Origin: Candidatus Zhuqueibacterota bacterium
GTDB lineage: Bacteria; Zhuqueibacterota; Zhuqueibacteria; Zhuqueibacterales; Geothermadaptataceae
DNA length: 32,681 bases
Assembly (NCBI GenBank): GCA_030950365.1
Contig: JAUZRQ010000134.1
Span: forward strand, 1-32,681
Reading direction: 5' to 3'
Positions 14,201-21,418 of the stretch are shown here, piece by piece; position 1 is the stretch's first letter, and each line of letters begins with the position of its first letter. Made by a program: the position numbers and the translations under genes. The notes beneath the pieces are model-generated. The model saw only the letters and a list, made by a program, of their open reading frames with translations. It was not told the origin of the DNA and searched no databases.

Positions 14201-14482
14201 ATGGCAAGAACGGTATTTTGCGTCAAGCTTAAACAAGAGTTGGAAGGTCTGGATGAACCGCCCCAGCCGGGCGAACTGGGCCAACGCATTTTCGAGAACG
14301 TCTCCAAAGAAGCCTGGAAAATGTGGATACAGCATCAAATCATGCTCATCAACGAATATCGCCTGAATCTGGCCGATCCGAAAGCACAGGAATTTCTGGA
14401 TCAGCAAATGGAAGCCTATTTTTTTGGCGAAGGTGCAGAGCTGCCGCCCGGATACGTGCCACAGGCCCCTTCGAAAAAATGA
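14201..14482 (+). CDS. yggX: Fe(II) trafficking / oxidative damage protection protein YggX
   Basis: This 93-residue cytoplasmic protein helps protect and recycle iron-sulfur clusters under oxidative stress. It aligns along its whole length with enterobacterial YggX: it begins MARTVFC with the conserved C7, then [17 protein letters not shown], the [14 protein letters not shown] helix and a C-terminal GYVP. The size is typical. It sits divergent from nfi and just upstream of the ATP-grasp gene. YggX is best known from beta- and gammaproteobacteria, so its presence beside GWxTD genes could reflect transfer or simply wider distribution. Confidence 0.93.
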
Positions 14483-14521
14483 TGCGTGAACCGCAACCGT
14501 GTTTTGGTCGAGCTGTTCCTG

Positions 14522-15787
14522 ATGCCTAAGTCGTCGAAGCGGATTCTCCTGTTTGCGCCGAAACACACCTATCGGTTGCACGATTTTCTGCAGGCCGCCC
14601 GCAAGCTGGGGATCGGGGTCGTGCTGGCCTCGGACCGGTGCAAGGTGCTGGCGGAGATGTATCCGCAAGAGAACGTCATCGCGGTCTCGTTCACGCATCC
14701 TGACCGCGCGGTGGCCAAAATTCAGGAGCAGCTCGAGGTTCGTTCCATCCACGCCGTTCTGGCCGCGGATGACGCCGCGGCCATTCCTGCGGCGAAAGTC
14801 GCCCGGGCTCTGAACCTGCCGTTCAATCACCCCGCGGCCATTCGCAAATCCCGCAACAAATTCATGTTCCGGCATGCCATGGTCAAAGCCGGTTTGCCGT
14901 CACCGGGATTCCGCCTGGCTGGCATCGAGCTTGAGCCGGAATCGCTGGCAACGGGAATGCGGTACCCTTGCGTGCTGAAACCGCTCATGTTGTCCGGCAG
15001 CCAGGGGGTCATCCGCGCCGACCATCCGGCCGAATTCATAGCGGCTTTCCGGCGTATTCGCCATTTATTGCAACAGCCCGAGATGGCCCACCCCTGCAAC
15101 CGCGCGTTTCGCTACCTTCTCATCGAAGATTACATCCCCGGGCAGGAATATGCCATCGAGGCGATTCTGACCCGCGGCCGGGTGCACCTGCTGGCTATTT
15201 TCGATAAGCCCGAGCCGCTGGAGGGGCCGTTTTTCGAAGAAACCATTTACGTAACGCCATCTCGGCTACCGGCTGACAGGCAGCGCAGGCTGAAAACCGA
15301 GCTCGAATCCGCCTGCCGCGTGCTGGGATTGCACCACGGCCCCATTCACGCCGAAGCGCGCATCAACGCGAACGGCATTTTTCTTCTGGAAATTGCGCCG
15401 CGCACCATTGGTGGGCTGTGCTCGCGCGCGCTCCGATTTGCCAGCGGTATGAGTCTGGAGGAGCTGGTGCTGCGGCATGCGCTGGGCGATTCACCGGCGA
15501 ATCTGTCGCTGCAGCGGCAGGCCAGCGGCGTGATGATGATCCCGATTCCGAAAAAAGGCGTTCTGAAACAGGTGCACGGCGTCGAACAGGCGCGCGCCGT
15601 ACCCGGCATTGTCGATGTGCAAATCACCTTCCCCCTCAACCACGAATTGATCCCGCTTCCCGAGGGCTCCAGCTATCTCGGCTTCCTGTTTGCGCGCGCG
15701 GAAACACCGGAAGCCGTGGTGGCCGCGCTGAGCTCCGCGCACGCCTACCTGCAATTCGACATCCTGCCGACTCTGGCGGTAGTGTAA
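14522..15787 (+). CDS. ATP-grasp domain ligase (amino-acid/peptide ligase-like)
   Basis: This 421-residue protein has the three-part ATP-grasp plan: a Rossmann-like pre-ATP domain (about 1-100, KRILLFAPKHTY), the ATP-grasp core with lysines in CVLKPLMLSGSQGV, LIEDYIPGQEYAIEAIL, and the Mg-binding segment GIFLLEIAPRTIGGLCSRAL. The C-terminal part (GMSLEELVLRHALG onward) resembles the tail of L-amino-acid ligases of the BacD type. Such enzymes join a carboxylate to an amine through an acyl phosphate; the substrates here are unknown. I start at ATG 14522; GTG 14486, directly after yggX, is possible but lacks a ribosome site. It converges with the radical-SAM selenoprotein gene at 5 bp, which suggests, but does not prove, a shared pathway. 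Confidence 0.85.
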   Translation: MPKSSKRILLFAPKHTYRLHDFLQAARKLGIGVVLASDRCKVLAEMYPQENVIAVSFTHPDRAVAKIQEQLEVRSIHAVLAADDAAAIPAAKVARALNLPFNHPAAIRKSRNKFMFRHAMVKAGLPSPGFRLAGIELEPESLATGMRYPCVLKPLMLSGSQGVIRADHPAEFIAAFRRIRHLLQQPEMAHPCNRAFRYLLIEDYIPGQEYAIEAILTRGRVHLLAIFDKPEPLEGPFFEETIYVTPSRLPADRQRRLKTELESACRVLGLHHGPIHAEARINANGIFLLEIAPRTIGGLCSRALRFASGMSLEELVLRHALGDSPANLSLQRQASGVMMIPIPKKGVLKQVHGVEQARAVPGIVDVQITFPLNHELIPLPEGSSYLGFLFARAETPEAVVAALSSAHAYLQFDILPTLAVV

Positions 15788-15792
15788 TTCAA

Positions 15793-17220
15793 CTAAATTC
15801 CCGGCACGGGATCGACTTCAGAGACCAACTGGTCTCGACGCGGCTCCGCTCAGCAGAACCAATCTTCGGTGAGCCGCGGTGGTGGGATATCCGGTTCCAG
15901 GACCACCGGCGCTTCTCGAAATTCCCCGTGGGCGTACTCGCTGGCGATGTCCCGAATGCGCGCGAAAATGGCCGCATTGGCGTGGCCGTCTGCCAGCATA
16001 CGTTCCACCGTGTCCCACACCCGTTGTTGCAGCTCGTCGGCTTCCGGCTCAGGATGATGCCATTCGTAGGAGAACTTTTCCTCATCGAACGCGCAGAGGT
16101 AGGGCGCCAGCTCGGGCAAATCGAGCAGCGGCGATTCCGGCGGCAGCAGCAACCGGATGCAGTACTGAATGGGATCGATGTTGGGCACAAGGCCGTTTTC
16201 GGCCACGAAATCCAGCAGCTCGATGAAATCCTGCACGCCGGTCCAGGGCGTAAACGGCATCAGCGATGGCCGCAGCACGATACCGGCCCGCTGCATGATG
16301 TCCAGCGCGGCTTCCACATCCACGCGCGTGTGACCCTTGTCCAGCAGCGCCAGGGTGCGATCCTGAATGCATTCCACTGCGGATACCACAAACAGGCAGC
16401 CAAGCCGTCGCAGTTCGGGCAAAAGTTCGCGGTATTCGAGAAGATGCTCGATTTTAGCGGTGAAATCGAACGTGAGCTCCGGCCAGCGGCGATGCAATTC
16501 CCGCACAATAGCCACGGAATGCCGCACGCCATTCAAAAAATCAGGATCGCCGAAGGTAATGTGGCGCGCCCCCATATCCACGAGCTGTTCAATATCGGCC
16601 AGCACCACCTCCCGCTGTACGATGCGCACGCGGCCGCTGTAGGCTGGGGTAATTGGGCAATGCTTGCACTTGTGCGCGCAGCCGCGGCTGGCTTCAACGT
16701 AGCCCACCCGATATAGCTCACCGCGGTAGCTCAGCCGGGTGTACTGATCCAGAGGCGGCAGCAGATGACGGGCAGGGCGCAGGAACCTCTGGCGGGGATA
16801 CAGGATCTGACCGCCGGTCTGCGTGACCACGCCCGGCACTTCATCGCGTCGGCCCGAAACCAGTGCTTTCAGCCATTGGATCAAAAAATGCTCGTATTCG
16901 CCGCCGATCACCGCATCGGCGATGGTATCCAGCAGGTAGCGCGCATTCAGGCCGGCGTACAGGCCGTAAAATACCCGATGCGCTTCGGGATTCAGGGATT
17001 TTACACGCCGCGCTACTTTCAGGCCAATGCGCAATGCGGTGTGCATGGGGGTGGAAATCGCCACCACATCGGCGTTTCGAACCAACGATTCGTCTAGCGG
17101 TTGTACAGCCAGATCAAGACAGTGCACCTCGTAGCCGGCCTCGAGCAAATACGCCGCTGGCGAGGCCAGATTGAACGGCTGATGACCGAGTTCGTATGTG
17201 GAAATCAGCAATATGGTCAT
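15793..17220 (-). CDS. CUAEP-tail B12/radical SAM selenoprotein (UGA read as Sec at codon 457)
   Basis: The conventional frame (15850-17220) encodes 456 residues: an N-terminal cobalamin-binding-like Rossmann domain (1-130) and a radical SAM core with the CX3CX2C cluster C181/C185/C188 (RGCAHKCKHC). It ends ...DWFC at TGA (15850-15852). The same frame then continues Ala-Glu-Pro-Arg-Arg and runs to TAG at 15793-15795, giving 475 residues with Sec457. Cys-Sec-Ala-Glu-Pro is the defining tail of the CUAEP/CCAEP-tail radical SAM family, where Cys can replace Sec. A hairpin starting 13 nt after UGA fits a bacterial SECIS. The ATG at 17220 has AAGGA 8 nt upstream. The reaction is unknown. The radical SAM call is near certain; Sec insertion is a strong inference. 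Confidence 0.88.
15821..15836 (-). ncRNA. SECIS-like hairpin downstream of the UGA (in-frame)
   Basis: On the minus strand GAGACC-AGUU-GGUCUC forms a perfect 6-bp stem with a 4-nt loop. The stem opens 13 nt after the UGA, and the loop G is about 21 nt from it, within the 16-37 nt window described for bacterial SECIS loops. The GU in the loop matches the type of contact made by SelB in fdhF SECIS. No T-tract follows on either strand, which argues against a terminator. Confidence 0.6.
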
Positions 17221-20707: not shown

Positions 20708-21094
20708 TCAGGTTTTGGTCTGCTCTTTGCTCTTGGAGCAGCTCTCCCCGCTGTCGCTGCAGGAACCATCTTTCTCTTTTTCCCCGTCACATTCGGCTTT
20801 GGCCTCAGCCGATTTGCCGTAGCCGGCCTGATGGATCGCCTGCAGAAGCGCTTCCTCGTCGGTCATCTTGGCATTATACACCACGCGCGCCGTTTTCGTT
20901 TCCAGGCTCACCGCGGTTTCCTGTACGCCTTCCACCTTCACCAGCGCCGCCTTTACATGTTCGACACAGTTTTCGCACATCATGTCTGGAACGCTAATTT
21001 CTGCCACTTTGGTGCTCGAAGAGGCCGGATAATACATGACCCCAATCGCCACAAGCGCCGCTACGACGACCAAAACTGGAATAACCCGTTTCAT
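20708..21094 (-). CDS. Membrane-anchored HMA (MerP/CopZ-like) metal-binding protein with Cys-rich tail
   Basis: This is a 128-residue protein starting at ATG 21094, which has GGAGG 4 nt upstream; an in-frame ATG at 21127 has no such site. Residues 1-22 form a signal/anchor. Residues about 28-95 form a heavy-metal-associated ferredoxin-like domain with the metal pair C40/C43 (DMMCENC; Met before Cys as in MerP/CopZ). The tail (about 100-128) adds four more Cys in a Lys/Glu/Ser-rich context (CDGEKEKDGSC, then SGESCSK). It probably binds soft metals at the outer face of the inner membrane. No transporter gene adjoins it, so it appears to act alone. Confidence 0.88.
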   Translation of the reverse strand: MKRVIPVLVVVAALVAIGVMYYPASSSTKVAEISVPDMMCENCVEHVKAALVKVEGVQETAVSLETKTARVVYNAKMTDEEALLQAIHQAGYGKSAEAKAECDGEKEKDGSCSDSGESCSKSKEQTKT

Positions 21095-21418
21095 AAAGCC
21101 TCCATCCGTTAATTTTAGCACGTACATGGTCTTGCGGCTCGATTAAAATCGCTGTCATCTCCCAGCGAGCCGATTTTGCCAAATATACAACAGCCCCGCG
21201 AACAAGTCAAGCAATTTGTCCGACAATACCTCCGCCAAATACACTGATTTTTCGGATGTTAATAGCAAAATTGGGACCTCGGGCGTCCGGCACCTGACAA
21301 AAATGAAACCTGGCATGGCGCAGAAATCGGTTTTCCGGACTGCCTGAAAAATTTGGCGGGGCTTCTGATTTCGAAAGGGGCAATCGTGATGATTCATCTT
21401 GGGGCAACATTTGGTTCA

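Follow-up and report, generated by a model that had tools for sequence, protein, structure and literature searches.

RESULTS

A radical SAM gene that continues through an in-frame UGA

The window, by which we mean the whole 32,681-nucleotide stretch of DNA analyzed, carries a radical SAM (rSAM) gene whose conventional reading frame stops at a UGA directly after a cysteine codon. The features at the locus are as follows.

15793..17220, minus strand: radical SAM selenoprotein gene of the CUAEP-tail family, encoding 475 residues including Sec457, stop TAG at 15793-15795 (NF040546, 640 bits)
16657..16680, minus strand: radical SAM motif C181-x3-C185-x2-C188 (translation and alignment)
15850..15852, minus strand: UGA, selenocysteine codon 457 in our reading, directly 3' of Cys456 (TGA/Cys alignment, tree)
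15793..15849, minus strand: 18-residue extension AEPRRDQLVSEVDPVPGI plus stop (read-through translation; AEP in all relatives)
15821..15836, minus strand: predicted bacterial SECIS apical hairpin GAGACC-AGUU-GGUCUC (folding, covariation, published constraints)
14522..15787, plus strand: convergent ATP-grasp gene of the L-amino acid ligase type (PF13535 and LAL_C2); the ORF is listed from 14486, with the likely start at 14522
14201..14482, plus strand: yggX, oxidative damage protection/Fe(II) trafficking protein (NF003817, 143 bits; cut-off, 74)

Under translation table 11, the ORF spans 15850-17220 on the minus strand and encodes 456 amino acids ending in ...LTEDWFC, followed by TGA. When TGA is translated as U, the frame remains open through Sec457, AEP, and 15 further sense codons to the TAG at 15793-15795, giving 475 residues with the C terminus WFC-U-AEPRRDQLVSEVDPVPGI. 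Only 5 bp (15788-15792) lie between this TAG and the stop codon that ends the convergent ORF (14486-15787, plus strand). An earlier note made from the DNA letters had described the same ORF end, in-frame Ala-Glu-Pro with 15 codons, and 5-bp gap, and retranslation reproduced all of these exactly. It had also considered a chance match to Ala-Glu-Pro improbable; with equal codon use, we put the chance of GCN-GAR-CCN directly after a stop at about 1e-4, and the comparison with relatives described below points the same way.

The protein belongs to NF040546, the NCBIfam family of CUAEP/CCAEP-tail radical SAM (seleno)proteins, as had been proposed: it scores 640 bits over positions 1-466 of 468 (cut-off, 500), and the C-terminal Cys-(Sec/Cys)-Ala-Glu-Pro is present as WFCUAEP. 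The UGA is therefore the Sec codon of an already known family, which together with its seleno-form is already in NCBIfam and in annotation use; in Thermomicrobium roseum, for instance, the family name appears in the annotation and the gene also has a TGA. In other words, the selenocysteine was hidden, as the earlier note had put it, in the window and from naive ORF callers, but not at the level of the family, which is in NCBIfam and whose name stands on a plasmid record. In the literature searched we found no paper under the names CUAEP, CCAEP, or RCCLKC, nor did we find the CUAEP family among the 119 prokaryotic selenoprotein families and subfamilies of a 2026 inventory (PMC13188914, Table 1).

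The three cysteines of the radical SAM motif are kept in at least 97% of the CUAEP rows of our alignment and in both ArsL-like rows. Among Pfam domains, Radical_SAM (PF04055) scores above its cut-off, and B12-binding (PF02310) reaches 39.5 bits against a cut-off of 32.1. An AlphaFold model of modest confidence (mean pLDDT, 62), built at low depth from three input sequences, has TsrM, AprD4, and OxsB as its best matches among solved structures; the C-terminal tail is disordered in it (pLDDT below 50), so that the model does not place it. The enzyme shares a B12-binding-type N-terminal domain and the radical SAM barrel with TsrM and OxsB (PDB 6wte and 5ul3) at 17-18% identity, whereas the CUAEP tail is absent from both. 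It has the B12-binding domain and, in the model, the fold of cobalamin-dependent radical SAM enzymes, and may bind cobalamin.

Relatives exchange selenocysteine and cysteine within a conserved tail

Codon 457 is TGA in 40 and TGC or TGT in 27 of 67 distinct relatives, and all 67 encode Cys-x-Ala-Glu-Pro, a count to be read with the fact that the pattern used to extract the tails itself required AEP. The pattern matched in all 30 best Chloroflexota loci and in all 40 larger neighborhood loci, however, so no exception is hidden among those. Further along the tail, one Thr and one Gln are common to the Sec and Cys forms. In the phylum of the window, the gene occurs in 8 of 82 genomes, with TGA in every copy that has a complete 3' end; in Chloroflexota it occurs in 99 of 400 genomes, some with TGA and others with Cys. 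On a maximum-likelihood tree, parsimony requires 12 Sec/Cys changes, and branches with strong support make 7 or more of these unavoidable. The tree included the tail columns with Sec written as Cys, so that the trait itself had no influence on it.

One candidate tail-less relative (L019) was dismissed when its tail was found in another frame, probably owing to a frameshift in that draft. In a Sec-form locus (L083; G430:C4:135145-136533), a TAG follows directly after UAEPA, and a SECIS-like hairpin extends past that stop. Several Cys-form Chloroflexota (L068, L069, L070, L072, L073, and L077) have longer tails with extra Cys-Cys pairs (e.g., SSCCGVGG), as if thiols had replaced the selenol. Judged from their sequences, these added pairs (e.g., in L069 and L072) would fit an arm that binds a soft atom or has a redox role.

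A SECIS hairpin that covaries in the selenocysteine forms

Published constraints on bacterial SECIS elements comprise a loop of 3-9 nt with a G within its first two positions, an upper stem of 4-16 bp, a spacing of 16-37 nt, and a minimum free energy of -7.5 kcal/mol or lower (PMC13188914). The hairpin in the window lies within all of these, with a 4-nt AGUU loop whose second base is G, a 6-bp stem, the loop 19 nt past the UGA, and an energy of -10.7 kcal/mol. Taking the better of two loop registers for each gene, we count four or more of the five stem pairs in every Sec gene (40/40) but in only 7/26 of the Cys genes; the loop G is found in 40/40 and 18/26, respectively. Among 24 sequences of one register, 100% of cells are paired, the covariation score is 0.52 versus 0.25 after shuffling (0/500 shuffles), and 14 double-sided stem changes are seen versus 2.9 in shuffles; these sequences were picked for that register, which favors the full pairing, and the shuffles leave relatedness in. 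Mean folding energies in the Sec genes are -10.2 kcal/mol observed versus -6.5 in synonymous shuffles, as compared with -6.4 versus -5.2 in the Cys genes. By base-pair count against synonymous shuffles, single genes, including that of the window, do not individually reach significance.

The selenocysteine machinery of the genome

The source genome is a draft of 4.98 Mb in 136 contigs, 95% complete. It contains a tRNA-Sec with anticodon TCA, a SelB that scores over its cut-off, and a SelD that itself has an in-frame TGA (CAG-U-ASK). A second tRNA-Sec-like match (L004; G000:C111:3022-3099) scores 48.2 bits against an Rfam gathering threshold of 47 and is probably another tRNA. SelA was not found in this draft assembly; it was detected at E<=0.001 in 19 of 20 relatives, 18 of these over the cut-off. 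In a genome of the same genus, selA is flanked by a serB-like gene and groEL, and the 9.2-kb selA-groEL stretch of that sister genome has no counterpart in our assembly beyond short repeats. Any genome of this kind should have groEL. Since it is likewise missing from the draft together with selA, we favor an assembly gap as the likely cause of the absence of SelA; a true loss of selA was set aside, the adjoining groEL being gone as well and the whole stretch unmatched.

The earlier note had named homologous tails, a SECIS element, and sel genes as checks on its reading. In relatives, the UGA is indeed followed by the same tail, or Cys stands in place of Sec, and the hairpin is present, within published constraints, and supported by a covarying stem. 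The genes are found only in part, namely, selB, selC (tRNA-Sec), and selD in the draft, but selA only in the genome of the same genus.

An ATP-grasp ligase accompanies the CUAEP enzyme

Within the window, yggX (93 amino acids, below the ORF listing limit used) lies directly upstream of the ATP-grasp gene, and both are convergent to the rSAM gene. Of the 400 Chloroflexota genomes considered above, 131 have a member of the ATP-grasp family, and these include 97 of the 99 rSAM-bearing genomes (Fisher p of about 1e-60, uncorrected for relatedness); in the 2 exceptions (G278 and G356), the rSAM gene itself is matched only in part. The two genes are at most 5.5 kb apart in 51 of the 97 genomes, farther apart on the same contig in 12, and on different contigs in 34, so that their co-occurrence goes beyond what linkage by itself would account for. 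YggX, the ATP-grasp ligase, and NfuA-like Fe-S carriers are found repeatedly near CUAEP genes of several phyla, as is a formyltransferase-like gene in Chloroflexota. Given the 97/99 co-occurrence and the shared gene neighborhood, we are fairly confident that the rSAM enzyme and the ligase belong to a common pathway. This context of the CUAEP enzyme seems to have been undescribed previously.

The ATP-grasp gene occurs without the rSAM gene in 34 of the 131 genomes, implying either that the ligase can work alone or that the drafts are incomplete. At many of these loci (L132-L151) it still lies beside NfuA-like or YggX/formyltransferase genes, and no replacement enzyme is evident beside it in the genomes that lack the rSAM gene. 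Because the ligase keeps these neighbors, the rSAM protein looks as though it had been added to a broader module. We found no viral relatives of the CUAEP enzyme. Elsewhere in the window, a heavy-metal-binding, MerP/CopZ-like protein whose tail contains Cys is encoded at 20711-21127 (minus strand); it scores below curated cut-offs, and the gene is conserved near the rSAM gene in the sister genome.

DISCUSSION

From the pattern of sequence conservation, we consider it very likely (probability of roughly 0.97) that codon 457, the UGA, specifies selenocysteine. Naive ORF calling ends at this TGA, and SelA was not found in the draft, as would suit a true stop, in which case the protein would end at Cys456 and the downstream similarity would be a remnant of a Cys-containing ancestor. 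Such a remnant would decay, yet Ala-Glu-Pro after the UGA is kept while third codon positions vary. Furthermore, the tail is kept in all relatives, Sec and Cys have been exchanged repeatedly, the SECIS is mostly confined to TGA forms, and tRNA-Sec, SelB, and SelD are present, all of which makes a true stop highly improbable. Insertion of some other residue, by near-cognate suppression or under a reassigned code, appears even more far-fetched: an open frame under TGA as a sense codon is in itself silent on which residue is inserted, but the genome has tRNA-Sec and SelB, the gene has a SECIS hairpin, and the position alternates with Cys and nothing else.

The nearest characterized relative of the enzyme is ArsL (NF040542), the RCCLKC-tail radical SAM enzyme of arsinothricin biosynthesis. 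It is the next-best family at 346 bits, the enzyme is 36-38% identical to two ArsL-like proteins and has 43 of the 63 most conserved positions in common with them, and the vicinal Cys pair at the C terminus of the ArsL family is shared at C456-C457; we base the kinship on this score, this identity, and the shared pair. The enzyme is not itself an ArsL, in that its score lies below the curated cut-off of 450 bits, its tail is CUAEP rather than RCCLKC, and the pair is Cys-Sec instead of Cys-Cys. An arsenic gene context was considered for the CUAEP enzymes and rejected, as ArsL-operon partners are essentially absent: BLAST searches against the ORFs of 52 CUAEP neighborhoods gave no ArsN1 or ArsR and essentially no ArsM, the only matches being one weak ArsM-like protein, three permeases at roughly 31% identity, and an ArsC at a distance of 11 kb. 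RCCLKC (ArsL-like) clusters on plasmids of Alicyclobacillus and Priestia (L130/L131) contain an ATP-grasp gene, a carboxymuconolactone decarboxylase family gene, and arsenic-related genes.

The reaction of the CUAEP enzyme can be approached from its relatives only by inference. Transfer of an aminocarboxypropyl group, as in ArsL, is a tentative assignment that we would not call probable. It is quite possible, if short of probable, that the enzyme is instead a cobalamin-dependent methyltransferase or similar, of the TsrM/OxsB type, in which the Cys-Sec tail would be a redox or ligand arm. In favor of this are the B12-binding domain recognized by Pfam and the best solved-structure matches; AprD4 has the same fold and is a dehydratase, however, so the fold is not decisive, and the closest sequence family remains ArsL, for which transfer of the SAM aminocarboxypropyl group to As(III) is reported (PMC8552651). 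A role in the synthesis of a natural product of arsenic or another metalloid, by analogy with the arsinothricin clusters, seems rather unlikely. The vicinal C-terminal pair shared with ArsL and the ATP-grasp within the Priestia and Alicyclobacillus RCCLKC clusters would be in line with it, whereas the near absence of ArsL-operon partners and the low identity between the ATP-grasps of the CUAEP and RCCLKC clusters (21-28%) argue against it.

Following the selenocysteine reading, the hairpin 19 nt downstream of the UGA would guide SelB, which would bring the Sec-tRNA to the ribosome. Translation would then continue to the TAG at 15793, yielding the 475-residue radical SAM enzyme with a C-terminal Cys-Sec-Ala-Glu-Pro. 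Conceivably, the tail is a mobile arm by which a vicinal thiol and selenol reach the active site, and the Cys-Cys pair in the RCCLKC tail of ArsL may act likewise. The enzyme might use SAM to build an amino acid-like product, either by passing the 3-amino-3-carboxypropyl group of SAM, in the manner of ArsL, to a soft acceptor or through methyl transfer. This product could be coupled by the co-occurring ATP-grasp ligase, with the NfuA-like and YggX proteins possibly supplying or protecting the Fe-S cluster. As a whole, we regard selenocysteine decoding, with the tentative function outlined here, as very probably the best explanation of the locus.

In summary, what looked like a truncated ORF becomes a full selenoprotein, and the covariation of the SECIS and the repeated Sec/Cys exchange provide independent support for the CUAEP family. 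More speculatively, the CUAEP rSAM enzyme and the ATP-grasp ligase, with YggX, NfuA-like, and formyltransferase-like proteins, may constitute an undescribed and widespread biosynthetic pathway in which the Cys-Sec arm would perform the key chemistry on a soft-atom substrate, as a selenium counterpart of ArsL. The near-perfect co-occurrence with one ATP-grasp ligase offers a handle on the reaction of the enzyme.
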